NCBI GenBank assembly: GCA_025174535.1
Contig: JALBUN010000004.1
Coordinates: 248,001 to 312,000 of the forward strand
Reading direction: 5' to 3'
Length of the DNA: 64,000 bases
Origin: Cantharellus purpuraceus
Lineage: Eukaryota > Basidiomycota > Agaricomycetes > Cantharellales > Hydnaceae
A program made the translations under genes and the position numbers. This document shows, in pieces, positions 7,251-47,525 of the stretch. The notes under the pieces were generated by a model. That model worked only from the letters and a program-made list of their open reading frames with translations, had not been told where the DNA came from and did not search any database. Every line of letters starts with the position of its first letter. Positions within the stretch are counted from its first letter, which is position 1.

Positions 7251-7844
7251 CGGTGGTTTTGCAAGTCGCCTCCTAGACAATAAAAGGACAGCAGTTACAT
7301 GTTATCGGATCCAAAATGAAAATGTTCTCAGTGTATGTAGAAGGAAGAGGGAGACACTGTCAAACAAATTATCTGAGTACCTGACAATACACCGCAAATG
7401 TTAAAACATGGTAGGTTTTTGAAACAAACATGTCGCCAATTTGATGATAAGTTATCTGCGAAAGAGTTCAGCCTGCGAGTATTCGTTGCTTTATCAACTT
7501 ATCCTTTGAACTGCGGACCTCCGCGCGTGCCAGGCTTGTAATATATATCTCAAAAGAAGAGCATTATGTGTAATGACGCAGTTAGGGAGTCTCCGTAAAC
7601 TAGTACCTAGTGTTCAATGGATCCTGCTCCCTAACTTGGTGAGATGTAGATGTTAAACCGTACATTGGGCTCAGTATCATACAACGAAGGTCAAACTGTC
7701 GAGACGCTAGCCTATGGTGAAGCGCTGTCTGAACCACGTTGCCATGTGAGTCACAATATCTGGAGAACCTCCTGAATGGCAACTAACTTGACAGTACGTC
7801 AACGGCAACGTAGTGCATCACGCTCTCTCTCTTACATGAGACTT
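7251..7844. other. Spacer between methyltransferase copies 2 and 3
   Basis: About 590 bases holding the 3' flank of copy 2 and the promoter region of copy 3. No further gene was recognised. An ATG at 7776 is in frame with copy 3 and would add 23 residues that have no counterpart in copies 1 or 2. Confidence 0.6.
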
Positions 7845-20631: not shown

Positions 20632-20899
20632 TGTTAATGTGTGTCATAGTTCACACTGTTGCACAGAACTCAACCAAGTGTATTGGTTGTGTGATATGTT
20701 GTACAGTGTGGTAATTAATAAGTTCTTTCTACTATAAGTGGACCCACATGTGTACTGGGTCCACTGGCTTACATAATAACTATACATATGCACCCATAGG
20801 GTGCATACATCTACCAAAAGGACAACATTCCTTAAGGGAATGCTGCATATATCAATTATACTTATATACTATAGTAAGTAAGTACCTTGGGTACTTACA
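20632..20899 (-). mobile_element. Candidate 3' LTR of the hairpin-rich gypsy element
   Basis: 268 bp from tgttaatgtg to gggtacttaca, i.e. TG...CA. On the minus strand it is directly preceded by a polypurine tract (plus strand ccctccccttttt, 20900-20912), as expected for a 3' LTR in minus orientation. It is rich in hairpins: 20737-20765 has 10-bp arms, 20787-20807 has 9-bp arms, and aagtaccttgggtactt lies near its end. No second copy was found, because the 5' end of the element is lost at 36484. Confidence 0.6.
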
Positions 20900-21732
20900 C
20901 CCTCCCCTTTTTGAATGAGGCACAATCTCATTCAGTACCTTTTAATCAACCCACTCCTTATGAAGCTGTTCCAATGAGTCGGTGTCCATATGATTGTCTT
21001 GTTCATATGGTTCCAGAGGAGGATGGCTCTCAGTTGTCCCCAAAGTGGTTGCTGTATCCTCATCCACTTGAATGGATGAGGAGGATGCAATTGCTACTGC
21101 AGCATCCCTATCGAGTTCACAATTAAGTTGATCATTGTTGAGAGATAAATTTGTGACAGTGCCTTGCTGGGGGTGTTCCATGTGAAGTAGAATTTGAATA
21201 GGGAATGGAGAAGTGATGTGGACTGGGTGTATGCACAGTTGAATGAAAGATATACTTGAGTCATATCTTCCTACAAAGTTTGAAATGATTCGGTGTGGTC
21301 CTCATCTAGATATTGACAATTAAAGTATGCAGCAGGGACTGATGCTTCAAAATTGAGTAAATGCTTAATAGAAAATCGACCAGTGGAGCTTAGGCTTTGC
21401 AAACTGGGATTCAAATAGATGATGATTGTAGAAAGACGCATCCGTTCTGGAGTTATTCCAGATACAAATAGTTCAGATACAGTCAACAAAGAAATAGTGA
21501 GAGTTAATTCTCTAGTCCATTGCATATCTAGCTAGGCATGTTTTATACAAGATATGCATGCTAATGACTCATGATAAAAGTTCTGTGTCATGTGAATAAA
21601 GGGAAAGTGATTTATGATAAAAATGAAATGGGGGTGATGTCAAATAGGAAAAAATGACAAAATAAATCAAAAGAAAATTAGGGTGATTGTTCAGGTGATT
21701 GTGGAGCTTACAGGGGCTCCTCCTTTCCCCTC

Positions 21733-23604
21733 TCAGTTGTTTCCCTTCATCTCCTTATCCCCTCCTGAGCTCCTGAGCCTCCTATGTGCTCCTATCCCTC
21801 CTATCCCCTCTGTTCCCCCCTCTCCTCCTTTCTCCCCAGAAGTCCAGTTTTCCAAATAACAATTGTGACCTAAATGCTCAGCAAGAGAGTGTTTAGCAGC
21901 TTTATGAGCTGCTTGGGAGACTCCCTGAGTCTCCTGCTTTTGCTTACCAACCCTAGTGGGCTGGTTAAAAGCTGCTCCAGAGGTGATGTGTTTAGCAAAC
22001 TCCTCTAATATAGCAGCACAATCAGGGGTGATGCCTCCTGATTGCCCAAACCAGAGCGCAAGCTCTAATTCAGTATGTTCTTTGGGAGAGCAATTCCCCC
22101 AATCATATGCTCCAGTGACTGAAGTGTTAAAGATGTCACCAAGAGTTGGTGAGAACTTTTGACCACTGGTCAATAATTCCCAGTGGCCAGGATTCTGGAA
22201 CATAGTCCAGAGGTTCTTCTTGAATGCAGAAGAACCCTTCTTGGGAGTGGCGTTTTGCAGCCACATCCAGATGTCCACATCAGACAAGTTCATCATACCA
22301 TCCAACTCCTGTCGGATGGCTGGGGGTCCCCCATTAGGGTTTACTTGCCACCCCTGTATGAGGGCAAATGTGTCTACCGGTGTGGTTGGTAGAGTGATGA
22401 TAAGACTCACGTTATTAGCGTGAGCCAGCAGAGTCATTCTCTTGATGACTCTGCGCATCAGTACAGTCCGTTCTGCAAATGGTGTGGCCAATGCCTTTTT
22501 ATGGAGCGATATGAACTCCAGAGTGTCTGTATCACAGATGAACCAGTCTGCCCTGATAGGGGCACACTTTCCCAGAGGTCATGGCAGGTGGCCAGTGACT
22601 GCTCTGGGAGGGTCAGCTGCAGTCATGAACCATGGTGCCCATTTGGGGAATGATTTCCCCACATCGGCATGCCCAAAATCATCCCAGCATTTGTGATAAT
22701 TTGTACACTGGGCTTCTTCCAACATCTTCAACACTGGGTCTTTTAAGGTATGGCTGGCATCACCAGCCATATATTCCTTTCAAAGCTGATCAATCTCAGC
22801 TTTGATTTCTGATAGGGAAAACTGTTTGAGTTTGCCTGGTTGCTTAGCACCCTTGGGAATGCTAGCCAGGAGGAGACCATGGTCATATCCCTCCCAGATT
22901 GGGTTGGTGTCATCCCAATCTTGACCCTTGAACCCTTGAGGGTCAACCTGAGGCAATTTGCTTGGGAGATTGTCCTCTTTGGTGAGATCAATCATTTCCT
23001 GTGATGATTGAAGCCATGGGTTGTGATGGCATAATGGCAGGCAATGATTTGCCTGTGGTAGCACATGATAGCAATGCTACTGGGGCCAAGCACACCATCG
23101 TGAGCATGGTTTTGAATGTAGGAGTGCTCTATTAGCAGCCTCCTTCAGTGTTTTTAGCTTGTCTCTGAGACAAGTTACTTTGGACTTCTCATTGTCAAGA
23201 AGTCCTTTGAGTTCTTGGACCTGTGCAAACAGGTCCAAGTTATCCTTGTACATCTTATTGTAGTCTTCATGATAAGGTGTCGTGACATCATCTTCAATGT
23301 CACATATAAGTCATGGCCATGCGACTCTTAATGCTCTTTCCACCAAAGCGGTGAGAAGATATAGTTGGCCTCCATTTTGGGCCTTGATTAAGTGTGACAC
23401 ATATGCATCACACTTGTTGCACCTGTGAGGGTGATGGATGGCAGTGCCACCATGCCATCTGCTGATTTTCCAGGTCATCTCATCTTGATGACCCCTGATC
23501 ATATCTGCAGCACTCGTTGCCAGTGCTGCTGCTGTGGAAGTTTGTTCAACTTCCATTGGATGCTCATCCTGAGCATCCATCATCTCCCTTCTGAGAGATG
23601 ACAT
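21733..23604 (-). pseudogene. Extra ORF between pol and 3' LTR of the hairpin-rich element
   Basis: A coding-like stretch on the same strand as pol. It is seen as frames 23604-23311 (starting MSSLRREMMDAQDEHPMEVE and containing HPHRCNKCDAY), 23064-22780, 22770-22579 and 22491-21733. The last ends in a Gly/Glu-rich, then basic, tail. Stops and frame changes between the blocks indicate decay. I recognise no domain. The protein looks soluble (no long hydrophobic helix), so it is not a typical envelope. Hairpins run through it, for example 22212-22236 with 9-bp arms. Confidence 0.6.
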
Positions 23605-24037
23605 TTTGATGGGGGGGTTGTGGTGGTTTGAAGAAACACCGCTAGCCTTTTATGGCTGAGCAAAAATTCTTTATTGAGAATTTTTCCAGTGACTATGTCA
23701 CATGGGTGTAATGTGATTAATTATTGCTTACCCCTTTCATGCTACTATGAGTAGCATGACAGTGAACTGCTCCCATAGGGAGCAGTTTTTTCTACCATTG
23801 AGCTGCCTGTTGTTATGGTAGCTCTATCCTTGTCTAGGAACTACCATTTAATCAAGGTAGTTCCTCCTCCCCTCATTGAGCTACCATCATTGATGGTAGC
23901 TCTTTGTTGCATCCTGCTAGGAGCTACCTTTATTCTTGGTAGCTCCACTTCCCCCCCTTGAGCCCCATTAGATCTTTGGGGCTCCATCTCTCTGAGAACT
24001 ACCATCTATGAGGTAGTTCTCACACTTGAGTCACCCC
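23605..24037 (-). repeat. Non-coding tract of consecutive hairpins
   Basis: Between the integrase stop and the extra ORF, hairpins follow each other almost without gaps: 23739-23759, 23765-23787 (10-bp arms), 23837-23864, 23878-23902 (12-bp arms, 1-base loop), 23920-23946, 23960-23984 and 23994-24021 (10-bp arms). Four of them share the stem word AGCTACC or AACTACC with its complement. It could form a long multi-stem RNA structure. Confidence 0.8.
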
Positions 24038-25045
24038 TCAAAGTTCTAAATAATTGTCTAGAGCTTCTAGGTCCTTACATGACATGTAAGGTTCCCAGGT
24101 GACATCTCCCAATGTCCATAGAACTTGAAATTCAAGTTCTTTATTGCTTATACATCGATGAGTGATGATTTCATCGACGAGCCCCTCCTGCTCATCATCA
24201 TTCCCAAAGTCGTAAAATGACTTCACTTCCTGTTTTGGGAATCTCATCTCATCATTCAGCACATATGGTTGAATGAGGCTAACATGGAACATAGGCGTAA
24301 TGCACCTACTAGTCAGTTCTGGTGGCAGTTCCAGTGTCACCATTGAGGCTTTATTATGGGCTTCAATTATTTTATAGGGCCCAATATACCTGGGCACTAG
24401 TTTGCTGGTTCTACCCTTAGGTAGAGTCAAGTTTTTCATTGAGAGGTAGACTTTGTCACCTCTCTGGAAGGTTGGACCTTCCTGACATTTCTTATTGGCA
24501 TGAAACATCTGAATGACACAACTTTCTATAATCGTGTCATGCGCTGCTAGCAGGTTTGTTTGAGCCTGCTGTGCGAATTGTTTGACAACCTTGAACTTGG
24601 TGTCATTGTTAATGGGCATGCCTATTCCAGGCATATACCTGTAGTTAAGCTCAAATGGAGTAAACCCTGTTGTTGAGCTTATGTTGGAATTTAGCACGAA
24701 CTCCACCATTGGACACTTGTGTGCCCAATCCTTCTGATCACTTCATACAACAGTACAAAGTATTTGGCCAATGGAATGATTTGCTTGTTCCGTCACTCCA
24801 TCTATTTGTGGATGGAATGCTGTGGACATGAGGAGTTTCACTCCCATTATCCACTGTAGTTCATGCCAAAAGATAGACATGAATTTTGAATCTTGATCAG
24901 ACACAATCAAGTCTGGTACACTGTGAAGGTGTACAACTTCTTTAAGGAATAGCCATGCTACTCCTTTTGCTGTTACATGTGTGTCCGTAGGTATTATATG
25001 TACTTGCGACGTGAAGCAATCTATGACTACCAGTAGGTAGTTCAA
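24038..25045 (-). pseudogene. Gypsy integrase core and chromo-like C-terminus (hairpin-rich element)
   Basis: Frame 25045-24743 carries the integrase catalytic core: NYLLVVIDCFTSQVHIIPT, LIVSDQDSKFMSIFW with the second Asp, and STAFHPQIDGVTEQANH with the Glu region. Frame 24709-24038 continues with TTGFTPFELNYRYMPG, the GDKVYLSMKNL and LVPRYIGPYKI linker typical of gypsy integrases, PMFHVSLIQPY, and a chromodomain-like end (DEIITHRCISNKELEFQVLW...WEPYMSCKDLEALDNY). A frame change around 24730 and truncation at 25045 by the inserted chromovirus make it non-functional. The N-terminal zinc domain is gone. Confidence 0.85.
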
Positions 25046-25052
25046 TTGACTA

Positions 25053-25612
25053 GCTGCTCATGTCCAATGGGGAAATGCAGCACTCCAACGCCAATTATAC
25101 AATGGCCTTCCATCCTGAATCAAGGATGAAGTTGCCAGAGTAGGCAAACCTGTCACCCTATCTGAACTCTGGACTCTAGCACAGTCCATCGATGCTTGGT
25201 ACTGGGAACGATGCTCCAAGGTAGCTCGTGAAACAGCCTCGGGCAAGAACCAGGACAAGTCCAACGACAAGGGCAAGCCCATGTCATCCACCAACACCCA
25301 GGGCAGCGATAACAAGAAGCATCCCAACTCTGGTAAATCCGGAAACCCCAGATCCAACCCCCCCACAGCCTCTACCTCTGGAACCCCAAAGCAGACCCCC
25401 AACCTCCCTACCAAGCTTGGTAAAGATGGTAAACTTACTCCACAGGAATGACAATGTCGTATCGAGCAGAATCTCTGCCTTTTCTGTGGACGAGTAGGTC
25501 ACATTGCCAAGGATTGTCCGAAGACCACCTCTGCAGCTACGAAAGCTTGTGCTGCTATGATGGACAACAAGTCCGACAAGATCTCCAAAGCCAAGGCTAT
25601 GGAGCCAAAATA
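25053..25612 (+). pseudogene. Chromovirus gag remnant with CCHC zinc knuckle
   Basis: The C-terminal half of gag: VQWGNAALQRQLYNGLPS aligned with the second copy at about 48055, then a Lys/Ser/Asn-rich linker (DNKKHPNSGKSGNPRSNP), then the nucleocapsid knuckle CLFCGRVGHIAKDC (C-x2-C-x4-H-x4-C, about 25477-25520), ending at TAA near 25611. One TGA within PQE-stop-QCRIEQN (25449) stands at an Arg position. The N-terminal capsid is missing through truncation. Confidence 0.82.
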
Positions 25613-28600
25613 ATAATAAGCAACCCTCTGGCTCCGGCACCAGACAAGGGTTGCATTGAACTCATTGGTGCCTTCATGGAGCTACATCTCAATGCATCTG
25701 CTCTTTCTGATCCTAACTCCTTGACACTCCAACTTACCTCCGACACTATTCCTTTAACACCAATCCCAACCCTAGTGGACTCTGGTTCCACTCATTGTTT
25801 CCTTGACTCCTCATTTGTCTCTGGATATCATCTCTGGACTGAAGACATCACTCCTATTCTGCTATGGCTTTTCAACGGATCCTCTAACTCCGTTATCAAA
25901 TCCACAATCAAATTGCCACTCCATTTTCCTATGGGAGAAACCCACTCCATTACTTTTTATGTAACTCCGTTGGATGTTAGTTGCTTGGCAGTTCTGGGAC
26001 ACAACTGGCTCACCCGCTACAATCCATTGATTGACTGGGTATTGGGCAGTACCTCGTTCCAAACTCTGATAGAGACTAAATCCTTGGCACCACCCAAGTC
26101 GGTAGCATTAGCTCCACTCAACTCTGTAACTCCATCTCCGTTCGTTGCTCCAAAAATAGCTTTTGTCAATGCAGCAGCCTTTGCCTGTGACTCTTCCCGA
26201 GCTGACGCACAAACATTCAAGTTGTTCATCTCCTCAACAGTTCCAAAGAACTTTGAGGACCCTCCAGTCGACGTGAAGAACGTTCCAACCGAATATCATG
26301 AATTCATGGACATCTTTAGCAAAGCCCATGCCAACACACTCCCTGCTCACAAGCCATACGATTTGAAGATTGAAATGGAAGATGGAACATCTCCTCCTTT
26401 TGGTCTGATCTACTCCTTGTCCCAGAGTGAACTCCAGGCTCTTTGAGAATTCATTGATGAGCATCTATCTTATGGTTTCATCCGGCCGACCCAATCTCCA
26501 GGCGGTGCTCCAGTCCTTTTCATTCAGAAAAAAGATGGTTCCCTCCGACTCTGTGTCAATTTCAGGGGCCTCAATAAACTCACCAAAAAAGACCACTATC
26601 TGCTTCCTCGCATCTCCAATCTGCTCAACAGTCCTAGACAGGCTTGATTCTTCACCAAAATCAATCTCCAGCATGCTTACCACCTTGTCCGGATTCATGA
26701 AGGTGATGAATGGAAGACTGCATTTTGCACTCGCTACGGCTCGTTCAAGTGGTGCGTTATGGCCTTTGGACTTACCAACGCTCCAGCAGCATTCCAGCAT
26801 CTTATGAACGACATTCTCTGACCTCCTGGATATATGCGTCCTCGTGTACTTGGACGATATCCTGATATACTCCAACAACTCCAAAGAACACAGCAACCAT
26901 GTCCATGAAGTCCTTCTCTGACTCCAGAAGCACAAGCTGTATGCTCAAGCCAACAAATGTTCTTTCCATGAGAGCACGGTTGAGTACCTCAGATATATAT
27001 TGTCTCCAAATGGACTTACTATGGACTCCAGCAAAGTCCAGGTAATACAAGATTGGCCAGAACCCCGCAAAGTCAAAGACATGCAATCCTTCCTAGGATT
27101 TGCCAATTTCTATAGGTGTTTCATATTCAACTACTCCGATCTCACAGTTCCACTGACTCGTTTAACTCATAAAGGAACTCCTTGGGAGTTCTCGGACTCC
27201 TGTCAGACATCCTTCAAAACATTAAAGAGAGCTTTCATCACAGCTCCGGTCTTATCACAATGGAATCCCAGATCCCCAATCATTGTAGAAACCGACGCCT
27301 CTGACTACACACTTGCAGCCATTCTATTAACCATCTCTCCAACAGACAATGAGGTCTATCCAATAGCTTTCCACTCCCAGACTTTCACTCTGGCGGAACT
27401 CAACCACAATGTCCATGATAAAGAACTACTCGCAATCTTTGAAGCTTTCAAGCCCTGGCGACATTACCTCAAGGGATCTCCAACTCCAGTTGATGTCATC
27501 ACAGACCACAAGAACCTTGAATACTTTTCAACTACCAAACTCCTTACATGGCAGCAAGCCCACTGGTCCAAATTCCTGTCCCAGTTCAATCTGGTAATCC
27601 GTTTCCATCCTGGCAAACTTGGTACAAAACTGGACTCGTTAACTAGATGATGGGATGTCTACCCTAAAGAGGGAGGAAATGATTATGCAGCAGTAAATCT
27701 GCATAATTTTAGGCCTGTGTTCACTAATGAACAGTTAACTGCATCCCTCTGAGCCACAACATTCTACTCCCCAGTCCTCCAAGCAGCCATCACTATGGAC
27801 ATTGACACTCCACTCCAATATCCGATCCACACTCCAATCAGATCCAGCCATCTCTGATCATCTCAATAAACTGACCAATTGCTGGTCCATTGACTCAGAA
27901 GGCTTACTCCATCTCGACAACCGCATCTATGTTCCTGATGTGAACAATCTCTGACTCCATGTACTCCAGAACAAACATGACCATCCAATCTCCAGTCATT
28001 TTGGACAAAACTGAACTATAGACCTAATCAGGCGAGACTATGTCTGGCCCAAACTCCGTGGTTCTGTTAAGTCCTACATCAAATCATGTACCACTTGTAT
28101 GCACTCAAAGTCACAGAGACATTGTCCTTATGGACTACTCAAGCAACTCCCCATTCCAGAGAGTCCATGGAACTCCATATCCATGGACTTCACCGCTTCC
28201 AGCATCCTCCAGTTATGACACCATGCTAGTTATTGTGGATCACCTCACCAAGCAGTCCATTTTTATTCCTACAGTTGACACCATCACCGCTCCTATGCTT
28301 GCAAAATTATTTGTGCTCCATGTCTTCTCCAAGCATGGAGTTCCATCACACATTACCTCTGACCAGGGTACGGAGTTTGTGTCCTCCTTTTTCTGAACCC
28401 TCAGAAAGGCCTTGGACATTAAACTCCACTTCACCTCCGGATACCATCTGGAAGCCAATGGACAAACCGAATGAATGAACCAGACTTTGGAACAGTACCT
28501 CCGAGTCTATTGCAACTACCAACAGGACAACTGGTCCAACTTACTTCCACTCGCAGAATTTGCATATAATAATGCTCCGAATGCCACTACTGGCTTATCT

Positions 28601-29270
28601 CCATTCTTTGCCAACAAGGGTTACCACCCAAACATCTCCATACATCCTGAATGAGACCTCGCTTCTTCAAGAGCACAAGACTTTGCTGTGGACCTCCATG
28701 AACTCCACCAGCATCTCTGAAAGACCATCTCTGATGCCCAACTCTGTTACTCCACCTCTGCTGACCATCATTGATCCCCGGCTCCAGACTTCAAGGTTGG
28801 AGACAAGGTTTTCATCAAATCTGACAACATATGTACCATGAGACCTTCCAAGAAACTATCAGAGAAATATCTTGGTCCTTTTGAGATCATCACTCAAGCA
28901 GGCTCTAACTCCTTTACCCTCTGTCTCCAAGAAAGCATGCACTCCATACACCCCATCTTCCACGTCTCTATGCTCGAACCATCAACTCCAGATCTATTCT
29001 CCAGTCAAGAACCAACTCCAGTTCCTCCTGTTGTCATAGATGGAGAACTGGAGTATGAGTTATCAGTGATCCTGGACTCCAAGATCAACAAGAGATGAAA
29101 GTGTAAACTGCAATACCTTGTCAGGTGGGCAGGATACGAAGGAACAGATGAAGAAACTTCCTGGCTACCAGCCTCAGAACTAGGACATGCGACAGAGATC
29201 ATCTCTGATTTCCACACGGCCTACCCTCATAAACCAAACCCCATCTTATCTCAGTTCACTCCATTTTCTC
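25613..29270 (+). pseudogene. Chromovirus pol: PR, RT, RNase H, integrase, chromodomain
   Basis: Order and landmarks: protease LVDSGSTHCFLDSS (near 25770), RT with [10 protein letters not shown] (near 26850) and FLGFANFYRCFI, RNase H starting ETDASDYTLAA and reaching TDHKNLEYF, integrase with MDFTASSSY-type start, ITSDQGTEFVSSFF and YHLEANGQTE, then a chromodomain (EYELSVILDSKIN...QYLVRWAGYEGTDEETSWLP). The frame is broken by about ten TGA codons (26444, 26645, 26819, 26920, 27648, 27751, 27952, 28394, 28472, 28654, 29096), nearly all where the family has Arg, plus some small frame changes (integrase). The coding architecture is otherwise complete. It is dead by point decay rather than by large deletions. 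Confidence 0.88.
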
Positions 29271-29313
29271 CAAGAAAATCCATTCATTCATTTCATCACA
29301 TTCTCTAACTACA

Positions 29314-30192
29314 TCAAATCTCCATGACCTCCAATTCCCCTACATCTGACTCCTCAGAATCTCCATCCACTGTTCCCTCCTTCTCTGAAATCTCCATCTC
29401 CTGCTCCCTAAGCATCTTGTCTATCTCCTCCCAAGGATGCCACATCTCATCATCCAAACCATCAAAGTTCTCCAGGGTATCCCACAATCCTGAGGAATTA
29501 GAATCCATGTCATATGTGGTCTCCAAAGCTTCCCGCTCCAATAAGACCAACTCCCAATGGAATGGACTCCATTTTGTTCCAGTCATGTGGTTGCAGAACA
29601 ATCCCATGAGCTCACCCAAATGGGCCTCAATGCCCTGAAGGGCTGTGGTTGTTCTCTCAGCATGCTTGGAGATGTCAATCAAACGATGAGCCACCGTGGC
29701 CACGTTAACGCTGACATCCTGCACGGCCTCTACCAACGCTGGCAGTATTGACTTGATCAGAGGACCCACAGACATGGTCCGCATCCTCTGACGCTTGGGA
29801 GACAGATCCACTGCACTACTACCCTCTTCACAATCACGCTTGTGTCACAGAGGAGCACTGCCCTTCACCTTGCACTTCAATCAATTATCTTGGCACACAA
29901 GGCAGGAGCAAGATTTTCCCATCTAAAAAACAATAAAATCAGTATGAAAAATTAATGCATTCACTGTTCCACTCACCGTGGCCCTTTCACATATGTCTTT
30001 GCGCTTGAGGCATGTGTTGCATATTAGGTCCAGCTTGGACTCCTTGTCCAGGTCTCAAGCGACCTCCTTGCCCTTTGCAACTGTCTTTGCCAAGGCCCTC
30101 TTCTTTGTGGCCTCTGCCTGGACTCAAGCAACCCCAGTGGCCCTCTCACGAGCCACCTCCTCCTTCTTCTGCCTTTCTTCAGCAATAGGCAT
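29314..30192 (-). pseudogene. Antisense spliced ORF with Zn2Cys6-like motif in the chromovirus 3' region
   Basis: On the strand opposite to pol, between the chromodomain and the 3' LTR. From ATG 30192 the frame reads MPIAEERQKKEEVARERATG and a basic helical segment, then CNTCLKRKDIC (C-x2-C-x6-C). An intron of about 54 nt follows, with GTGAGT donor, TACTGAT branch-like site and TTTTTTAG acceptor (about 29957-29904). Then come MGKSCSCLVCQDN-stop-LKC (again C-x2-C-x6-C), a basic SPKRQRMR stretch, a helical region (about 29780-29590) and an acidic tail to 29314. Four TGA stops interrupt it, matching decay of CGA or TGG codons. The cysteine spacing resembles fungal binuclear zinc-cluster transcription factors; the function is unknown. 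Confidence 0.65.
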
Positions 30193-30336
30193 AGCAGATG
30201 GTGGTAAGAGATAAGGAGCAAGGCAACATGCATTTAATATTTGGCCCAGCCTCGTGTGCCAATTCAAACGCATATACCGTCAATTTTCCCACAGTGCTGA
30301 CTAAGATCTCATGGGCTCAATCTAGAAGGGAGATAC

Positions 30337-30772
30337 TGTTACATCCTGTAACACTGAGTCCAATCTCCAGATTTCATCTCCATCTCCTTTTACTCCACCT
30401 CCATTAACTCCATCTCCATTAACCCCAAACTCCATTATTGTTCTCCTTATAAGTAGTTTTCTTCTTATGGGTTACAACAAGCCATTACTCTTTATATTGT
30501 TTAGTATTAGTTTGGACTTGAGTCTGAACTCCGAACTCCTTTCTGTGTTGTATTCCATATCCATCTTATTGTCCTATCACTTTTAGTTTATCATTCATTT
30601 CTTCACATACTTATATGGGCTACTCTCTGTATGTTACAGCAGTTCATATATCGACTAAGATTCCCCATCAGCTTCTTGGTTGCTAGCTTCTTGACAAGTA
30701 TCTTCTTGACAAGTCAAACTCCAGATCCTTAATCCAACTCTGTACTCCAATCTCCAAAATATTGGACCGACA
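30337..30772 (+). mobile_element. 3' LTR of chromovirus copy 1
   Basis: 436 bp beginning tgttacatcctgtaac and ending attggaccgaca, preceded by the purine tract agaagggagata. TATA-like sequences (ttataagtag near 30448, ttatattg near 30493) lie inside. No 5' partner exists in the window, so the ends are inferred from TG...CA and the adjoining purine tract. Confidence 0.65.
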
Positions 30773-30940
30773 ATTTGAGGGGGCACAACACACAAGTTGA
30801 AGCCAAGTCCACTCAATCTGACTCAATAGTTATTGTTGACATCTGTCTCCAGTTGAACTGGAACAGTAAATCCCACCCTCTTCCTCACTAGCATCTGAAT
30901 TCCAGTGACTCCTTTGCACTCCAAAATTTTCAACTCTTAA
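30773..30940. other. Short copia-like scrap at the insertion boundary
   Basis: Includes agttgaagccaagtc, which resembles the stretch at about 19628-19648 of the plus-strand copia remnant. It is probably a small leftover of another insertion between the chromovirus LTR and the hairpin-rich element, which resumes with a hairpin at 30943-30960. Confidence 0.4.
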
Positions 30941-32420
30941 CAAGGATGAACTTTCATCCTAGTAGCTTATCTTCCCATCTCATTAGGGCTTTGAGGACAG
31001 CTATAGTCTCATGCTTGTGGGTCTTATAGTGCTGTTGTGCAGCACTAAATTTCTTGGATAGGAATCTGGCAGGCCGACAGGTCTGCCAATCTTTTCCTTG
31101 TCCATAGATGGCTCCAACTCCAGTTTTGGAGCTGTCAGTAATAACCAAATAGTATCGGGGTTATTGACATTGATGGGCTTCAATATTGGAGCCCTACACG
31201 CTAGGAGCTTGATGCTCTCAAAGCATTTCTCTAGCAGTGGTGTCCATAAGAATGGACAATTATTACGAGCACAACCCAATAATGGGGCTGTGTATGCAGT
31301 TATGTCTGGCATATAGTGCGCCAGATACTGCACTAGTCCAAGAAAATGTTCATGGTATGACCTAGGTCATCTCCACTCTCATATTCACTGCATTTTATCA
31401 GCATCTGTGTGCACGCCTTGGTCATCTATTAGATGACCAAGGCAATCCAAACTTGTTGAGTATAGATTGATCTTATCCTTGCTGAGGAAGATATGTGCTT
31501 TTCCTGAGTTCAGTGAACACCATCTCTAGGTGGCATTTGTGCTCTTGTATAGCACAAGAGTACACAAATATGTCGTCCAGATATACATGGACAAATCTTC
31601 CAATATATTCTTGGAAGATGGCAGTCATGAGCCGCTGAAATGTCGAGGGGGCATTGCAGTCCCCTTGCTGCATGACTTGTCCCCAAGACAATTGCAAATG
31701 ACATCTTGGGTGTATCTGTCGGTCTGATGCGCATCTGTTCATATGCCTCAGACATATTGAGTTTAGATCAATATGTACAGCAGGCAACATTGTGTCTAAT
31801 GTTATCCTGATCGGGGAAGGGTGTTACATCCTTCACTGTATTATCATTCTGTTCATGCAAGTCAAACATGGTGCAGAGCTTCCCATTTTTTTTGGGAATG
31901 CATAGCATTGGTACAGCCTGGCAGGCTGTAGCCAATACCCACCATTTAGCAGTGGTGTATCATAGAACTTTCTCTGAAGGTTCTACTCAGTAGTGCTCTG
32001 GACACTTAGGCAAGCAATAATGTATTCATTTGTCAGAAAACACAAGATTAATCTTGTGGTTAACTTCCCTAAATGGGGGAAGTTCTAAGGGTATGCTGCT
32101 GAATAGGTCAGCATACTTTTCTTTCCATTGATCCCTCAACTGAGGGATCTGACCAGCCATGTAAGTGGTTGATCCTTCATGAGATGAAGCTATTCACGTC
32201 GTGCTCTTATTTGGATCTTCCATTGGGGATCCTTTACCAAGTCTAGTCCTTCTTGTAGGAAGGACTGCATTGTGGGTAGCTTGTGTTTAGAGTTACCCCC
32301 TTGGCGCCATTTATTCATGCCAATACTCCTTCACATTGAGTTTATACCCCATGATGGGGTATGAAGAGCATTGGTATTATGCTCTTCATTGGTGGGGACT
32401 TCTTCAGTTCCCATCATGAT
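30941..32420 (-). pseudogene. RT and RNase H of the hairpin-rich gypsy element
   Basis: Minus-strand fragments contain the RT catalytic region (CNAPSTFQRLMTAIFQEYIG then FVHVYLDDIFVYS, about 31560-31650), the connection segment QYLAHYMPDITAYTAPL, and an RNase H start (MVITDSSKTGVGAIY, KFSAAQQHYKTHKHE, to 30954). Upstream RT parts (32400-31800) are heavily decayed, with scattered motifs only. Hairpins remain dense: 31595-31619, 31912-31930, an 18-base perfect palindrome at 32041-32058, and 32130-32149. Confidence 0.8.
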
Positions 32421-32672
32421 TCAGCCTGGGTCATTAAAGTCCAGGCATATTCCTAGCTTTCGTAGGAATGGGGTACTGAGTATTACATTGTAATACTCAA
32501 CGTTGGTGACATCAAAATATTCTTCAATGTCCCAACTACCAAATTTTATGATAGTGTGAGTACCATAATTTATGGTACTCCTGCTCCCAACACATGCTAA
32601 TTGCAGTGTGATGGGTTGCTCTAGCACAAAGGTTTTCATACCTGTTGCACATGTGAATTCAGGGGATATCAT
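32421..32672 (-). pseudogene. Aspartyl-protease region of the hairpin-rich gypsy element
   Basis: The 83-codon frame has the flap and C-terminal part of a gypsy protease: QLACVGSRSTINYGTH, FDVTNVEYYNVILSTPFLRK (the ILGxPFL-type motif) and GICLDFN. The D-S/T-G active-site part just upstream (about 32675-32710 on the minus strand, reading LLDSGSEG) lies across a frame break. The segment 32673-33221 connects to gag and holds the acidic end of gag plus short decayed frames. Confidence 0.7.
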
Positions 32673-33221
32673 TATCCCCTCACTTCCACTGTCTAATAGA
32701 CAGTGGGCTAGTGTTCCACCAATTTCCCAATACCCAGAGATTGTTTTGTTGTCTATGTGTGGTCTATCTGATTGCGCTGTTGACTTCTGTTAGCTCCTAT
32801 GATTATACATAGGTTTGGCCGATCTGTCAACACTAACAGCAGCTATATGCAGCTGTCATGATTCCCTGCTTCTCAGGAATCTTGTTGCACTATAGAAATG
32901 CACTGCATAGGTGTGTCTCAGTGGAATTTGATCATTGGGTTGAATTCATATCACATTAGAGTGATACATTGGCATAGCCTCCCTTTTGGGGGCATAATCT
33001 TGGTCATCCCATTCGTATGGGGCAACCTCTTCATCTCATTTGTCAGCCACTTCTATAGCTGATATTTTTTCATCTAGATGGTCCTTGGGATCATCCATTG
33101 CTTCTTCATGTTCTCCCTCTATCAGGGAGAATCCATCTACCTTATCCTTCACTATGTATGAGGACACATCCTTTCAGACCACAGCTGACCTTATGTTGCC
33201 CTTTAATTTGGGGCAGCTAGG

Positions 33222-34832
33222 TCACATGTGACCTGTCTGGCCACATTGGTAGCACACAATGTTACTAGTAACATTGTTCAATCGATCACCACTCGTGTGT
33301 GCTGGTGGTTTTGATTGATAATTACCCTTGAAAAGGTAATTGTTGGAATTGGACCCAGAGCTTCCATTATGGGGTTCCAACCTTGACACACTTGCTTGTT
33401 GTGAGTGTGTGTTGGAAGCCATATACACACATCCTTGGGGCATGGGTTGACTCCCCATATTTATCATACCAGTAGTTCTATTGACTACTGGTCTATGGGT
33501 TGAGGAGGATGTGTTAGTCGCATTCTCCAGGTGTTGCATACTGTGGTGGTATTGCACCACTTCCTCTATCATTTGAGCAGTTTCATACAACTGCTTGATA
33601 CTGCTAAATTTGGCATTGAAGCCCTTCTTGAGGACTTCTTGTCTCAGAGGTTCACACATTGCAGTTACAAACCTCTTCCTGTACGTCCTTTGACCCTGTA
33701 TTACATAGTCAAATTTATTTGATGCATGGTGATGCATCAGGGTGTGTAGGAATCTATGCTGCAATCCTTGGATTGCAGTGTCCAGGGTCCAGTCTTGGAC
33801 TGCCCTGTTGTAGTGTTCTACATTCCTGTAGAACCATTCCTGGGCCTTGCCTTTAAGGTGAGTGCCTAAGTACAATAGCTGAAACTTTGTACTTGATGGC
33901 CCTAGGAGATTACTCATCTCCAGCCATCATAGCATACCTGCTACAAAGATCTCAAACTCTTCAAGATCTGTGCCTCCTGTGTATTGCTCAGGAGGTGATA
34001 CTTTAATGCCTGCCTTGGCAAGTACAGACTTTTCTGGGTCTGTGTCTCTATTATCAACTATGGCTACTTGCACCATGCAAGTAATGCCATCAATAGGATC
34101 AATTGTGTCCAATTGATCTGGTATGCCTTGACCTTCTAGGGTCAATGGCACTGATTGTTCCCTGTTATGGGGAATGTCTTCTTGAGGTACCCATTGGGTA
34201 TCTTGTTGCTCATGGTGGGTGTCTCCTGAAAGGCCCACTGCTCATACACGCTGATAACTGTTCAGTGCATGTTGCGACTGTCAATTCAAATTGACAGCCA
34301 CATTGAGCTCTTGCTGGGGCCACTGCTCTCTAAACAGCTGGCTGAGCTCTTGCTCTGCATGTTTAGCCTTCCGTTCAAGGGCTAATCTATGTTTACAAGA
34401 AGCCTCAACTTCTCATTGTTTCCATAGCTCAATCTCTTGATTGAGCTCCTTTGTCATAGATTGAGGAGTTTCCTCTTCAATCTGGATCAGTAATCCTTGC
34501 CTTGCCAGGATTACTGGGTCTCTAATTCCCTCCATTGGGGAAATTTCATTTCCTCTGTCTAACTGATCATTTGGTTGGACCCTCTCACCCTGGGGTCCAG
34601 ACTCTCTGGATTCAGATTCTTGTTGAGAATCTGATCTTTGGTGACACAACTTGCGTCGCTCAGAGTTCCCTTGGAGTGATTTTAACATTGTTCCTAGCTC
34701 TGCTATTTGCTGCCCCATAGTAGTGGCAGCATGCCCTGCTTCAGCAGCCATCTTAGCTGCCTGAGCACTAGCTTTGCTAATGCTCTTCATCTCATGTTGA
34801 TCACGCATGAGTTGTTCAGTCAATCTTGCCAT
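33222..34832 (-). pseudogene. Gag of the hairpin-rich gypsy element
   Basis: Begins MARLTEQLMRDQHEMKSISK (34832), a coiled-coil-like N-terminus, followed by a charged linker with several stops. The capsid core is at 33917-33222 (LLYLGTHLKGKAQEWFYRNV, AMCEPLRQEVLKKGFN). The segment ends in the zinc knuckle CYQCGQTGHM, next to a TGA where an Arg or Trp would stand. Perfect palindromes lie inside coding sequence, for example 33256-33277 (22 bases) just before the knuckle, 33468-33492, 33759-33778 and 34278-34297. Confidence 0.82.
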
Positions 34833-34847
34833 TGACCTGTGGGTTTC

Positions 34848-36277
34848 TGTTTTGGAACCTGCAAAATTATGGTGTTAGGGCAAACTCTAAATCACCACAA
34901 TTCTGTGAATGAACAGCTGAGAAGAATATCAAATCCTACTGCAGCACAACTCCAGAAACGATTTAACGTTTGTACTTTGGTTACAATCCGTTGTAATGGT
35001 CAATGCAGACGATACGCAGGAAGGTAATACGTTTCTTAGCAGTAGGGAATGAATAAGACTTCCAGAGTCTAGAGTTCACGGACGCTTAGGGGTCCAGATA
35101 TTCCAAAAAGAGGGGAATGCACTTAGAGGCTAGAGGAAGTAGGTGGATGAATCCGACCGTCCAACCAGTGACACTCTGAAGCAGGTAACAGCGATGTGTG
35201 AAGTAGTCTAGCAACTGCTTCACACAAGTTCAAGATTCTAATGCTCTGCAAAGGCAGTACACACTAGTAACTTAAACAAGAGCACTAATGGCAGGACTAT
35301 CGACAGACAATCTCACCCTGTAGATTCATAGTCACGCGAGGTAGATACTACACTCACGCCCAAAGCAGGACAATCACTACTTCGAGTGCAATCGAATACA
35401 GTTACACAACTGTAAGCGACCCTTGAACTGGACAATCAACAGTTACTGAGATATAGAGGATGACACTGTATGTCACTCTAGTCACACTGATGTGCAAATG
35501 ATGGGGTAGAAATGGTTATTTATTTCAGAGGCAGAATGGGCTCCTTTTATATTGTATTTACAGGAGCTGACTAATACTACTGGAAACTTCTACCTATTAA
35601 TAGATGGAAACTACTGGAAGCTAGTGGAATATGTGAGAAGGGGGTGGAAGTTTCCTAGCCAATGAGCTGCTTGGATTTGCTCTGACTCAGGGCATGAGTC
35701 ATGGATGGAGTCATAGTGTGACTCAGAGCAGGAGTCATAGTATGAGTCATGGAAGGAGTCATAGCATGAGTCATGGCAGGAGTCATTGCATGAGTCACCA
35801 TTACTCAAATAACTCGGTCAATACTTTGTTTCCCAGGCTGATTAGCACAGCTATGGGTAGGCATGGCTTCTATTGAACTCTCCACTGAAAATGGAGTCAG
35901 GAGGTGCAGTGGTTGCGAAGATATTGAGGATTTACTGGCAGTGGTGACCAGATTGAGTCGGAGATTGAAATGAGTCATGTGATCGAAAATGAGTCAGTTG
36001 TCCGGGTGACTCCGGCTGACTTTGAGGCTGCTGACATCTGCGAAGGTTTGTGGGTCCATGTGGGTCCCAAAACTTCGCCCAGCAGAACAATAAGTTTGTA
36101 GACTCATTTCTGCATGGAAAATTCCCGAAAAAATATGAAAAAATAGAGAATATTTGAATGGCCCTGAATCAAGAGAAAGCAGCAGATATATGCTGATATT
36201 TTAAGGCCATCAAGCGGAATTGTACAGTTTCGGGACTTTAAACAAGATCTTTTTAAGGGAAAACCAGTTTCCATACA
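34848..36277 (-). mobile_element. Solo LTR, form A (LTR-A2), inverted
   Basis: 1430 bp, the same length as LTR-A1 and nearly identical over the stretches compared, including the TGASTCA array. It is flanked by gtttc on both sides (34843-34847 and 36278-36282), a 5-bp target duplication. It was inserted into the 5' leader of the hairpin-rich element, upstream of its gag. Confidence 0.92.
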
Positions 36278-36484
36278 GTTTCATGCCACTCCATGCTGCA
36301 ATTCCCAAGCAGAAGTATTGCTACTTCACATTGCTACTTCTACTTGTGCTTGTATATTGAGTATGTTCCTTTCCTTTAGGAACATTGGAGACAGTGGATG
36401 ACTGTCTCCTCCTTTCTTCTCTAATCAAAGAACCACTCAATGAGGGGCTCTTGTTTGACAGACAATCTACTGTGCAATCGTCTG

Positions 36485-37870
36485 TGTTTTGGAACCTGCA
36501 AAATTATGGTGTTAGGGAAAACTCTAAATCACCACAATTCCATGAATGAACAGCTGAGAAGAATATCAAACCCTGCTGCAGCACAACTCCAGAAATGATT
36601 TAATGTTTGTACTTTGGTTACAATCCCTTGTATTGGTCAATGCAGACTATACACAGAAAAGTAATATGTTTCTTAGCAGCAAGAAATGAATAAGACTTCC
36701 AGAGTCTAGAGTTCATGGATGCTTAGGGGTCCAGATATTCCAAAAAGAGGGGAATGCATTTAGAGGCTAGAGGAAGTAGGTGGATGAATCCAACTGTCCA
36801 ACCAGTGGCACTCAGAAGCAGGTAACAGCGATGTGTGAAGTAGTCTAGCAACTGCTTCACATGAGTTCAAGATTCTAATGCTCTGCAAAAGCAGTACATA
36901 CTAGTAACTTAAACAAGAGCACTAATGGCAGGACTATTGACAGACAATCTCACCCTGTAGATTGGTAGTCATGTGAGGCAGATACTACACTCAAGCCCAA
37001 AGCAGGACAATCACTACTTTGAGTGCAATCAAGTACAGTTACACAACTATAAGTGACCCTTGAACTGGTAATCAACAGTTACTGAGATATAGAGGATGAC
37101 ACTGTATGTCACTCTAGTCACACTGATGTGCAAATGATGGGGTAGAAATGGTTATTCTTTTCAGAGGCAGAATGACCTCCTTATATATTGTATTTACAGG
37201 GGCTGACTAATGGTTTTGGAATATTCTACCTATTAATAGATGGAAACTGCTGGAAGGTTATGGAAGGTGGAAGAAAGGGGTAGAATATTCCAAGCCAATC
37301 ACAGGTTCTGGAATGTTCTATCTAATAATAGAAGAAAACAACTAGAATGTTATGGAAAGGGGTAGAATATTCCAAGGCAATTACCTGATCTGATCATCAA
37401 TCACCTGCTCTGATCCCTGAACTAGGCACTGATCAGGCAAAAAGAAGGGTATCCACCCTGTTTTCTGCACTGGTTTGGACAGCCATGGATAGCCACATCT
37501 CAGGGCAAGATCTCCATGGAAAATTGTGCCCTGAGAGGCTGTGGTTGTCAAGTTACAGATTATTTATTGATCAGAGACATCTGAGCTTGAATTCAGGCCG
37601 AATGCCTGGTCCAGAGGTGGAGAGCTGGCTGTGTGAAGGTTTGTGGGCACCTATGGGTCCACAACTGTAGCACAGCAGAATAAGAGCATTCTAGGCTGAG
37701 TTCTGCATGGAATATTCCTGAAAAAATATGGAAAAATAGAGAATATTTGAATAAGTCCATTCCAGGTACAAGCACTAAATATATGCTGATATTTAGGAAT
37801 GGAAACGCAAAGTATAGCACATTGGTGCTGCATAAATAGGATTTGATAGGAAAAAGGTGGTTCCCATACA
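36485..37870 (-). mobile_element. LTR, form B (LTR-B0), inverted, without matching flanks
   Basis: Starts tgttttggaacc and ends gttcccataca, the form B variant of the same LTR family. The flanks (gtctg and gctgg) do not match, so it is not a simple solo insertion. It joins the leader of the hairpin-rich element on the left to a copia integrase on the right. This suggests that recombination between two LTRs removed the DNA between them, including the 5' LTR of the hairpin-rich element. Confidence 0.85.
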
Positions 37871-45855: not shown

Positions 45856-46080
45856 CTGCCTGTCACCATACCAATGGTCCATGGGGTTGCAGAGGGGCAG
45901 TGAAGTTTTCTGGAGTAGGTGGCACAAGGGGCTATTGTGGTTGGCTTTGCCATGGCCTTTGCTATCAAGGATGCCACTGGCCCTCTCAAAGTCAACCACC
46001 ACAGCCCCTTGTGCCACCTGCTCCAGAAAACTTCACTGCCCCTCTTCAACCCCATGGACCATTGGTATGGTGACAGGCAG
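45856..46080. repeat. 225-bp foldback (arms about 92 bp, loop about 37 bases)
   Basis: The left arm begins ctgcctgtcaccatacc and the right arm ends with its reverse complement ggtatggtgacaggcag. Apart from a few mismatches the arms pair over about 90 bp (45856 to about 45950 with about 45988 to 46080). It abuts LTR-A3 exactly at 46081 and replaces the 3' end of the GT2 pseudogene. No transposase is present. Confidence 0.85.
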
Positions 46081-47496
46081 TGTATGGGAACTGGTTTTCC
46101 TTGAATAACATCTTGTTAGCAAATGAAATTAACACTATCTGACAAATCTCTATCCATTCAAAGGGCTGCGGCTGAGGAGCAAATACCTGCTGCTTTCTAT
46201 TGATCTAGGGTCATTCAAATATTCTCTATTTTTTCATATTTTTTCAGGAATTTTCCATGCAGAAATGAGTCCACAACCTTGTTGTTCTGCTGGGCAAAGT
46301 TTTGGGACCCACATGGACCACAAACCTTCCCAGATGTCACCAGCTTTAAAGTCAGCCGGAGTCACCTGGACAACTGACTCATTTTCAATCACATGACTCA
46401 TTTCAATCTCCAACTCAATCTGGTCACCACTGCCAGTAAATCCTCAATATCTTCACAACCACTGCACCTCCTGACTCCATTTTCAGTGGAGAGTTCAATA
46501 GAAGCTGTGCCTACCCATAGCTGTGCTGATCAGCCGGGAAACGAAGTATTGACCAAGTTATTTGAGTAATGGTGACTCATGCAATGACTCCTTCCATGAC
46601 TCATACCATGACTCCTGTGATTACTCATACTATGACTCCATCCATGACTCATGCCATGAGTCAGAGCAAATCCAAGCAGCTCATTGGCTAGGAAACTTCC
46701 ACCCCCTTCTCACATATTCCACTGGCTTCCAGTAGTTTCCATCTATTAATAGGTAGAAGTTTCCAGTAGTATTAGTCAGCTCCTGTAAATACAATATAAA
46801 AGGAGCCCATTCTGCCTCTGAAATGAATTACCATTCCTACCCCATCATTTGCACATCAGTGTGACTAGAGTGACATACAGTGTCATCCTCTATCTCAGTA
46901 ACTGTTGATTGTCCAGTTCAAGGGTCGCTTACAGTTGTGTAACTATATTCGATTGCACTCGAAGTAGTGATTGTCCTGCTTTGGGCGTGAGTGTAGTATC
47001 TACCTCGCGTGACTACAAATCTACAGGGTGAGATTGTCTGTCAATAGTCCTGCCATTAGTGCTCTTGTTTAAGTTACTAGTGTGTACTGCCTTTGCAGAG
47101 CATTAGAATCTTGAACTCATGTGAAGCAGTTGCTAGACTACTTCACACATTGCTGTTACCCACTTCTGAGTGCCACTGGTTGGATGGTTGGATTCATCCA
47201 CCTACTTCCTCTAGCCTCTAAGTGCGTTCCCCTCTTTTTGGAATATCTGGACCCCTAAGCATCCGTGAACTCTAGACTCTGGAAGTCTTATTCATTTCTT
47301 GCTGCTAAGAAATGTATTACCTTTCTGCGTATCATCTGCATTGACCATTACAACGGATTGTAACCAAAGTACAAACATTAAATCATTTCTGGAGTTGTGC
47401 TGCAGTAGGATTTGATATTCTTCTCAGCTGTTCATTGACAGAATTGTGGTGATTTAGAGTTTGCCCTAACACCATAATTTTGTGGGTTCCAAAACA
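46081..47496 (+). mobile_element. LTR, form A (LTR-A3), without matching flanks
   Basis: 1416 bp with tgtatggg...ccaaaaca ends. It carries the TGASTCA array in slightly shortened form and a TATA box (acaatataaaagg). CpG sites intact in LTR-A1 are partly TpG/CpA here, so it is older. Left flank ggcag and right flank ccaat differ, so it is not a clean solo LTR. It joins the foldback to the leader of chromovirus copy 2. Confidence 0.85.
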
Positions 47497-47525
47497 CCAA
47501 TTCCAAACATGCATGAACCATTGAG

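Follow-up and report, generated by a model that had tools for sequence, protein, structure and literature searches.

Dense perfect hairpins with inverting loops in a Ty3/gypsy retrotransposon family of Cantharellus purpuraceus: a likely product of short-range template switching

A Ty3/gypsy chromovirus-like LTR retrotransposon family of the basidiomycete Cantharellus purpuraceus is saturated with short hairpins, and the loops of these hairpins are inverted in place between copies. Loop inversion is the key finding and matches the published footprint of template switching, one of three causes offered by the original prediction and the one that the inversions support. Repeated short-range template switching is the likely process by which the family was turned, almost throughout, into closely spaced perfect hairpins. 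The origin and upkeep of perfect stems is an old question of molecular evolution; template switching is a proposed answer, inferred for the most part from individual ancestral events. With 111 hairpins, 94 places of one gag hairpin, 266 LTR places and two-state loops, this multicopy family provides many replicates of the event within one genome, and makes it possible to compare the footprint of reverse transcriptases with that of DNA polymerases.

Results

The copy under study lies in a window of 64,000 nucleotides (contig JALBUN010000004.1, positions 248,001 to 312,000, forward strand). Inverted repeats with arms of at least 7 bp and loops of at most 12 nt were scanned against 100 dinucleotide shuffles. 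All 14 hairpins listed from the first reading were recovered at their positions, and the saturation observed by that reader is real, the excess over the shuffles being stronger than had been claimed. Region 20632-24742 contains 49 inverted repeats (shuffled mean 3.8, maximum 9) and region 31000-36484 another 49 (mean 5.0, maximum 12); with arms of at least 9 bp and loops of at most 12 nt the numbers are 19 (mean 0.26, maximum 2) and 20 (mean 0.36, maximum 2), respectively. The excess covers the LTR, leader, gag, pol and 3' ORF, as the prediction had it, at 5.9-20.9 hairpins per kb of element part, or 8 to 60 times the shuffles. The neighbours reach only 1.2 to 2.5 times their own shuffles, with 1.7 hairpins per kb in the nested chromovirus, 1.2 in the copia-like neighbour, 1.4 in the 46000-54500 block and 2.2 in the gypsy element at 56715-62166. 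Arms are mostly of 7-12 bp, and the longest perfect arm, of 14 bp with a 1-nt loop, is located at 31415-31443.

The stretch 20632-36484 is not the single continuous element that had been supposed, since it is interrupted by other insertions (Table 1). These foreign sequences, together with the stretch beyond 36486, are hairpin-poor (0.7-1.7 per kb), and at 36486 the 5' piece of the gag frame is broken off by another copy of the inserted element. A second LTR for this copy was not found within the window. Beside the reverse transcriptase and RNase H part, about 900 bp of the pol sequence that other copies possess are missing, and gag is without about 68 bp found in other copies. The ORF at 21733-22578, belonging to the 3' ORF, gave no match in a Pfam search, its end falling inside the inserted stretch, and has relatives in metagenomes. 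Four hairpins of the GGTAGTTC type, related as judged by eye, stand in tandem at 23836-24022, within the spacer that separates pol from the 3' ORF.

Table 1. Parts of the window copy, interrupting sequences and hairpins followed between copies
Position	Strand	Feature	Hairpins or remark
20632-20899	-	3' LTR (TGTAAG...AACA)	18.6 per kb
20787-20807		LTR hairpin	3-nt centre inverted in window copy relative to most places
20900-21135	-	3' untranslated part, polypurine tract AAAAAGGGGAGGG directly before LTR	
21136-21865		Insertion of about 730 bp, missing from other copies read	1 hairpin, not rich
21868-23649	-	Pieces of additional 3' ORF after pol	14.6 per kb
23650-24032	-	Spacer, pol to 3' ORF	20.9 per kb
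23765-23787		Hairpin	Loop inverted in window copy relative to commonest form of other copies
24033-25041	-	Integrase C-terminal part (SH3_Tf2-1) and chromodomain-like pol end	5.9 per kb, lowest of the element
25042-30939	+	Insertion: nested chromovirus plus other sequence	1.7 per kb
30940-32262	-	Reverse transcriptase and RNase H part of pol	11.2 and 11.7 per kb
32263-33157	-	Protease and linker	8.9 per kb
33158-34847	-	gag	12.4 per kb
33759-33778		gag hairpin	Central AA to TT in 7 of 94 places genome-wide (two patterns); window has common form
34848-36277		Second nested insertion	1.4 per kb, not rich
36278-36486	-	5' piece of gag reading frame	Broken off at 36486

The LTRs of the family start with TG and end with CA, a polypurine tract precedes the 3' LTR, and the ORF pieces follow the order gag-PR-RT-RH-IN, with the motifs of protease, reverse transcriptase and RNase H identified by eye. 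Pfam returned Ty3_capsid below the cut-off (E 0.0012) and SH3_Tf2-1 above it. For a chromodomain at the pol end the Pfam search gave no match; 99% of the pol-end query aligns, at 50% identity, with a Phanerochaete sordida protein annotated as chromo domain-containing. No TGG start of a primer binding site was seen directly after the 5' LTR in any of the eight copies read, and comparison of the first 40 nt of one leader with one LTR, made with regard to self-priming, gave no match longer than 7 nt. Among viral contigs, 41 stretches fitted a pattern and none was a relative by tblastn.

Other genome copies, which the prediction had proposed to look for, were found, and the hairpin excess is both family-wide and family-specific: 12.2 hairpins per kb in 109.9 kb of the family versus 1.54 per kb in 202.7 kb of other fetched sequence. 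A related family of the same genome, sampled as pieces of 1.4-1.5 kb from three copies, has no excess (3, 1 and 4 hairpins versus shuffled 1.4, 1.1 and 1.4, all three counts falling inside the spread of 100 shuffles). A few 1-kb intervals outside the family reach 6-8 hairpins, namely the join ends of L016/L019, L024 and positions 55751-57000 of the window. The ratio of observed to expected inverted repeats rises from 2.8 at 6-bp arms to 50 at 9 bp and 86 at 10 bp, while in the same spacing bins direct repeats stay at 0.3-1.7 and mirror repeats at 0-2.7 times the shuffled level. Low complexity or composition as a cause was ruled out by the dinucleotide shuffles and by the fact that direct and mirror repeats are not enriched to a similar degree. 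The hairpins are limited in size: the 111 present in 9 kb (loops up to 12 nt) span at most 30 nt in total, versus a permuted maximum of 35 on average, and longer arms go with shorter loops (Spearman -0.45, p 7e-7). They lie at shared positions in two aligned gag segments, the copy alignments being pairwise projections on one copy with indels ignored.

Loops were compared among 27 family sequences, an exact reverse complement being defined by 0 transversions and at most 2 transitions. In 28 copy-rows the loop differed from the commonest one by at least two transversions, and 14 of these, in nine hairpins, were exact reverse complements. When rows of windows with at least five of six flanking pairs were taken, 67 of 106 multi-transversion differences were exact reverse complements, versus 5 of 637 in the control with three or four flanking pairs and 5 of 3274 with fewer. 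The LTR hairpin at 20787-20807 is inverted in 45 and not inverted in 220 of 265 LTR places genome-wide; all 45 inverted places and 100 of the 220 non-inverted ones were among the matches listed. None of the six intermediate A/T loops occurred in perfect context among the genome-wide matches, in which all would show. The LTR pattern count of 266 exceeds 45 plus 220 by one, hence one or more places must have an intermediate A/T loop in imperfect context. The 120 LTR places outside the matches listed may hold further intermediates. For the gag hairpin at 33759-33778, perfect context gives 66 AA and 6 TT loops, and context with a single mismatch gives 21 and 1, respectively; the AA and TT lists share no place, so that there is no intermediate in perfect context. 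Inversions common to several copies may be inherited, and the events are then fewer than the copies.

Correction of stem mismatches in single copies showed no excess, as 47 transversion states restore the pair and 53 do not, with a similar balance in slid controls; hence arm creation was not caught in the act, and loop inversion alone was. Double compensatory changes between two subfamilies numbered nine at the true register versus 0-1 per slid register, although eight of the nine depend on a single copy of subfamily B, L035, and the helices had been picked on the same sequences, which biases the test towards the true register.

Discussion

Strand switching during replication of the element probably made the hairpins and maintains them. 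On reaching a partly self-complementary stretch, up to about 30 nt long, the polymerase copying the element would quit its template, briefly copy the nascent or complementary strand, and then return. The switch would render the two arms exactly complementary and, where the copied piece spans the loop, would leave the loop inverted; changes compatible with the encoded proteins would survive and be spread by retrotransposition. The switching polymerase is probably the element's own reverse transcriptase and the switching step reverse transcription. The same process would first have made the arms, and the hairpins presumably have no use of their own. Perfect Watson-Crick arms with no wobble or strand preference, a feature of template switch products, are present in the family. 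In Monttinen and Loytynoja (2022, PMC8794818), loop inversion is a product of interstrand switching and loop-only inversions are statistically enriched in rRNA histories, the strongest support being compensatory change together with loop inversion. The loop inversions seen in the family occur alone, without accompanying compensatory change.

Host DNA replication or repair could instead switch strands once hairpins exist, the element being a hairpin-rich substrate only. This is unlikely, even though template switching has been proposed for ordinary DNA replication too (PMC8794818) and seven of eight other window intervals have a mild inverted-repeat excess (1.2-2.5 fold; the eighth 0.8). Nested insertions, neighbours and related-family pieces of the same genome show no strong excess, hence the host alone is not making hairpins. 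Two neighbouring same-strand LTRs, possibly of one element, are discordant, C18:660294 being inverted and C18:638964 not; gag and integrase pieces of the hairpin-rich family lie between them, and discordant same-strand pairs 0.6 kb apart are found on C5 and C15. If such pairs are one element, inversion can take place after integration or during the step just before it. In contrast, both LTRs flanking the L035 copy (C48:2023393 and 2034568, 11.2 kb apart) are inverted, and on C45 this is also true of two LTRs on the same strand that lie 6.4 kb from each other. Concordant LTRs are expected if the loop state is set before integration, and chance agreement is possible.

Selection for RNA structure was also offered by the prediction; it is quite improbable that selection for a highly folded genomic RNA, for packaging, stability or silencing escape, is the main cause. 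Such selection would fit hairpins at shared positions across copies and the folding of 53 windows of 150 nt far below shuffled sequence (mean z -3.52, 83% below -2), versus only -0.89 in 36 windows of a neighbouring gypsy. However, sense and antisense strands fold equally (z -3.52 versus -3.46 in the 53 windows, Wilcoxon p 0.64), and no wobble preference appears in fixed stem mismatches (G-T 21 versus A-C 23) or in single-mismatch stems (G-T 8 versus A-C 13). Moreover, loops of 0-2 nt are enriched 11.8 fold, nearly as much as longer ones (12.4-18.0 fold), and loop orientation flips freely among copies. Taken together, the results on wobble, strand and loops reject RNA-structure selection as the main cause. 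Insertion of ready-made hairpin modules, the third cause offered, would suit the four tandem hairpins of the spacer, seen by eye, but is very improbable given the shared positions in the two gag segments and direct repeats of at least 7 bp that are at chance, which indicate no general similarity among arms, so that hairpins in general are not copies of one module.

Dense palindromes are carried here by long coding sequence, and in conserved columns residues match those of relatives about equally in arms (38 of 50) and elsewhere (214 of 274). The commonest residue of the relatives is matched at 62 of 114 arm positions and 331 of 542 others (p 0.21); hence no clear cost to the encoded protein is seen. 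The window hairpins fall into codon phases 1, 2 and 3 in 35, 22 and 19 cases, and codon-shuffled gag gives 37, 34 and 29%. The broadest reading, for which the balance lies slightly on the doubtful side, is that of an LTR retrotransposon lineage in which reverse transcription habitually changes strand within about 30 nt and which has, in the course of many rounds, rewritten itself into near-continuous perfect hairpins, still coding for its proteins and with loops still inverting. If this is true, the element owes its form to errors in its own copying.

Comparison with known systems

Fungal chromoviruses of the Tf2/Ty3 type have an LTR, a polypurine tract, a gag with a Ty3-like capsid, protease, reverse transcriptase, RNase H and an integrase with SH3_Tf2-1 and a chromodomain-like end. 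The window family resembles them in its LTR, polypurine tract and gag-to-integrase layout, and differs in being saturated with hairpins, in its extra 3' ORF and in that no TGG-type primer binding site was seen. No hairpin-saturated retrotransposon was found among the listed titles and abstract openings of the open-access literature. Genome-scale ordered RNA structure is known from some RNA viruses; the family is similar in its folding energy far below shuffled along the element, but is without strand asymmetry or wobble preference.

Perfect inverted repeats inside protein-coding genes are shared with the mitochondrial palindromes of Nematomorpha, for which Mikhailov et al. (2019, PMC6649704) discuss template switching as well as conversion of repeats among the possible causes. 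There, codon registers are ranked by constraint, phase 1 being the weakest and phase 3 the strictest; repeats above 15 bp number 47, 22 and 41 in phases 1, 2 and 3, with totals of 2419, 1207 and 1120 bp. Those repeats are mitochondrial and long (up to 284 bp), whereas the window family is a nuclear LTR retrotransposon with many short ones (arms of 7-14 bp) and with loop inversions seen directly between copies. The family is also like the template switches of RNA genes, with perfect stems and in-place loop inversion. For these, PMC8794818 explains compensatory double changes by short-range switching and counts 69 loop-only inversions across many rRNA histories, the loops being typically of 4 nt. 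In contrast to those cases, nine inverting hairpins belong here to one family, saturation extends over an entire retroelement, and the switching is suspected to occur in reverse transcription.

The hairpin-rich element

The window corresponds to positions 248001-312000 of contig C4 in the assembly G000 (40.15 Mb, 50 contigs), and its hairpin-rich element is a Ty3/gypsy chromovirus-like retrotransposon on the minus strand, with gag, protease, RT, RNase H, integrase, an additional 3' ORF, LTR and polypurine tract. Protease, RT and RNase H were identified by eye in ORF pieces, the integrase carries SH3_Tf2-1 followed by a chromodomain-like end, and the LTR of the window copy has 268 bp (TGTAAG...AACA). 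Phanerochaete sordida was among the protein matches of the element. Because the additional 3' ORF has 10 relatives among metagenome proteins, the best with 53% identity over 79%, it seems to be a gene that the element's lineage has conserved. The sequence directly 3' of the 5' LTR was read in eight copies (L027, from its position 1467, and seven others); it is CTTTTTTGAACTTCC or a close variant, with no TGG-type primer binding site directly after the LTR in any of the eight, and in four of them (L027, L021, L028 and L013) this start is followed by a perfect 22-nt palindrome. None of the insertions that break the window copy is hairpin-rich. One inserted element is present twice, 1.6 kb apart, and sequence matching it occurs in several other loci fetched from the genome, such as L010, L014 and L022.

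Features of the window (positions from its start; hairpins are perfect inverted repeats with loops of up to 12 nt)
Position	Feature	Details
5423-8660	Three related ORFs or fragments	In tandem
5903-6073, 6874-7044, 8284-8454	Repeats of one another	Within the tandem ORFs
6354-7250	Middle tandem ORF	Methyltransferase domains
20632-24742	Element interval	Arm >=7: 49 hairpins (shuffled mean 3.8, maximum 9); arm >=9: 19 (shuffled 0.26)
20787-20807	LTR hairpin	
21136-21865	Insertion	
21733-23649	Additional 3' ORF	No Pfam match (21733-22578 tested)
25042-30939	Insertion	
31000-36484	Element interval	Arm >=7: 49 hairpins (shuffled mean 5.0, maximum 12); arm >=9: 20 (shuffled 0.36)
33685/33684	Gag	Lacks ~68 bp (~23 residues) found in other copies
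34848-36277	Insertion	Inserted element, copy inside the retrotransposon
36485-37870	Inserted element	Copy at the cut-off 5' end of the retrotransposon
Beyond 36486	Insertion	
55751-57000	Sequence outside the family	1-kb windows with 6-8 hairpins

The saturation with hairpins is a real and striking feature. All 14 hairpins named in the original prediction are present, and in both element intervals the number of hairpins (arm of at least 7 bp and loop of up to 12 nt, unless stated otherwise) lies far above that in 100 dinucleotide shuffles per interval. In the five other intervals of the window the counts exceed their shuffled means by factors of 1.4 to 2.3. The enrichment rises with arm length, from 7-fold at 7 bp to 50-fold at 9 bp, and is 12-18 fold with loops of 0-12 nt, 1.7-2.7 fold at 13-25 nt and 0.7-1.6 fold beyond. 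Direct repeats in the same spacing bins show no comparable excess (0.3-1.7 times shuffled), and mirror repeats range from 0 to 2.7 times shuffled, with the top values (2.0-2.7) at spacings of 17-30 and 4-5 cases each. Stems take up 29% of the bases versus 5% after shuffling, and when decayed CG sites are allowed 40% of the element lies inside hairpins (6% shuffled). The total span of 111 hairpins averages 22.6 nt, with a maximum of no more than 30 nt; longer arms go with shorter loops (rho -0.45), so that the span itself looks bounded.

Hairpins as a property of the family

The hairpin property belongs to the element family. Many other copies were found in the genome, and in the two gag segments compared, for which 15 and 14 fetched copies were set beside the window copy, every sequence (16/16 and 15/15) carries 7-18 hairpins at positions common to the copies (shuffles, 0.3-1.3). 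The pooled density is 12.2 hairpins/kb in the family (109.9 kb) versus 1.54/kb in other fetched sequence (202.7 kb), where 13 overlapping 1-kb windows reach 6-8 hairpins, at the ends of the joins of loci L016 and L019, in locus L024 and in one stretch of the window. All parts of the element stand at 8 to 60 times expectation (LTR 18.6 hairpins/kb, leader 10.9, gag 12.4, protease 8.9, RT 11.2, RNase H 11.7, integrase 5.9, spacer 20.9, 3' ORF 14.6); the leader and a 0.9-kb part of pol, both missing from the window copy, were taken from L027. Pieces of 1.4-1.5 kb were taken from three copies of a related family of the same genome (L038-L040), which shares 57-59% of its nucleotides with the integrase region; they have 3, 1 and 4 hairpins versus 1.4, 1.1 and 1.4 shuffled, none outside the values that 100 shuffles gave. 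In a third gypsy family (L041), 1.3 kb of sequence contains 1 hairpin versus 0.95 expected.

The family is large, two patterns around one gag hairpin matching 94 places genome-wide and one LTR pattern 266. In the main subfamily, transversions between copies amount to about 1% (0-2%), but BLAST identity to the window is mostly 82-94%; a second subfamily (L035-L037) differs by 1-6% transversions. The remaining divergence among the copies (L009-L037) consists of transitions; because many are CG to TG or CA, their excess fits cytosine methylation and suggests that the repeats of the fungus are methylated.

Inversion of loops between copies

Comparison of copies revealed loops that read as the reverse complement of their usual form. 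A systematic test took in 324 loops, counting those that overlap, with an arm of at least 6 bp in one or more rows; it used 27 sequences, of which some do not cover every loop. At least two transversions separate the loop from its commonest form in 28 copy-rows; 14 of these match the reverse complement exactly (zero transversions and up to two transitions), and the other 14 do not. The inverted rows fall at nine hairpins, in gag, RT-RNase H, integrase, spacer, 3' ORF and LTR. In a control that sorted all windows of 3-12 nt in the same alignments by paired flanking bases (of six), inversions made up 67/106 window-rows with at least five paired, 5/637 with three or four and 5/3274 with fewer, rows that are not independent because the windows overlap.

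At the LTR hairpin, CCCTATGGG occurs at 45 places genome-wide, all listed, and CCCATAGGG matches 220, of which the 100 listed are all perfect. The six A/T loops intermediate between these states would, with the rest of the context perfect, lie within two mismatches of CCCTATGGG, and none is among the places at that distance. Any A/T loop gives 266 places, which exceeds 45 + 220, so that at least one intermediate stands in imperfect context; further ones may be among the 120 unlisted places. The centre of a gag hairpin is AA at 66 places and TT at 6 in perfect context, without intermediates, since the two lists share no place; one mismatch adds 21 (AA pattern) and 1 (TT pattern), as locations only. 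The natural reading is that the loop inverts in one step.

Among the 16 LTR rows read, each loop state is found with either base of a nearby T/A difference, which implies recombination or more than one inversion. The LTRs flanking L035, 11.2 kb apart, are both inverted, as are two on contig C45, 6.4 kb apart. By contrast, the LTR at C18:660294 is inverted but that at C18:638964 keeps the other state; integrase and gag pieces of the family lie between the two on the same strand, and the LTRs may be the ends of one element or belong to separate ones. At C5:1022073/1022672 and C15:986557/987156, LTRs of the family in opposite loop states sit 0.6 kb from each other, likewise perhaps of one element, perhaps of two; given the equal spacing on two contigs, one of these pairs probably arose by duplication of the other.

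Origin of the hairpins

Hairpins in reading frames of the window use all three codon registers, with raw counts of 35 (1:1/2:3), 22 (1:3/2:2) and 19 (1:2/3:3) and shares of 37, 34 and 29% in codon-shuffled gag; the order of the counts is the rising-constraint order described, in the part of PMC6649704 considered, for mitochondrial coding palindromes of Nematomorpha. Over the integrase end, gag and the 3' ORF, 62/114 residues in arms and 331/542 elsewhere are those most frequent among relatives (p 0.21); at conserved columns the figures are 38/50 and 214/274. Since arm and other residues match similarly, the hairpins suit the proteins at no measurable cost, which is what would be seen if protein function had sifted the products of the process; a slow synonymous process would give an identical coding picture.

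Selection on folded sense RNA would tolerate G-U and not A-C. In one-mismatch stems A-C occurs 13 times (2.2 expected) and G-T 8 times (1.5 expected), other classes being near chance, and mismatches fixed in subfamily A are 23 A-C, 21 G-T, 30 in five other classes together and 17 mixed. Folding is similar in sense and antisense (mean z -3.52 vs -3.46 over 53 element windows, Wilcoxon p 0.64), a neighbouring gypsy element giving -0.89 (36 windows). With no strand specificity in stems or folding, the selection for RNA structure originally proposed is unlikely as the main cause.

Template switching, also foreseen, is well supported by the loop inversions, the perfect arms, the absence of wobble and the bounded span. 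A polymerase would switch briefly to the nascent or complementary strand and yield perfect arms, and a copied piece spanning the loop would invert it. The feature is confined to one family and is faint or missing in neighbouring sequence, in nested insertions and in the pieces of a related family; this suggests that the switching occurs during the element's own replication, the reverse transcriptase being the obvious candidate. Between subfamilies nine stem pairs changed on both sides with pairing kept, versus 0-1 in each slid register, eight of the nine coming from L035 alone and the helices being chosen on the same sequences. Single-mismatch repairs in individual copies show no excess (47 restoring, 53 not), which counts against template switching.

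In the sections of Monttinen and Loytynoja (PMC8794818) considered here, such a brief switch produces perfect stems and compensatory changes, with the loop inverted where the copied piece spans it; loop-only inversions are enriched, and a compensatory change joined to a loop inversion is the strongest support and extremely rare. The copies described here show loop-only inversions alone, without a joint compensatory change, and the anatomy of their hairpins, with perfect arms, no wobble and bounded span, fits the process set out in those sections.
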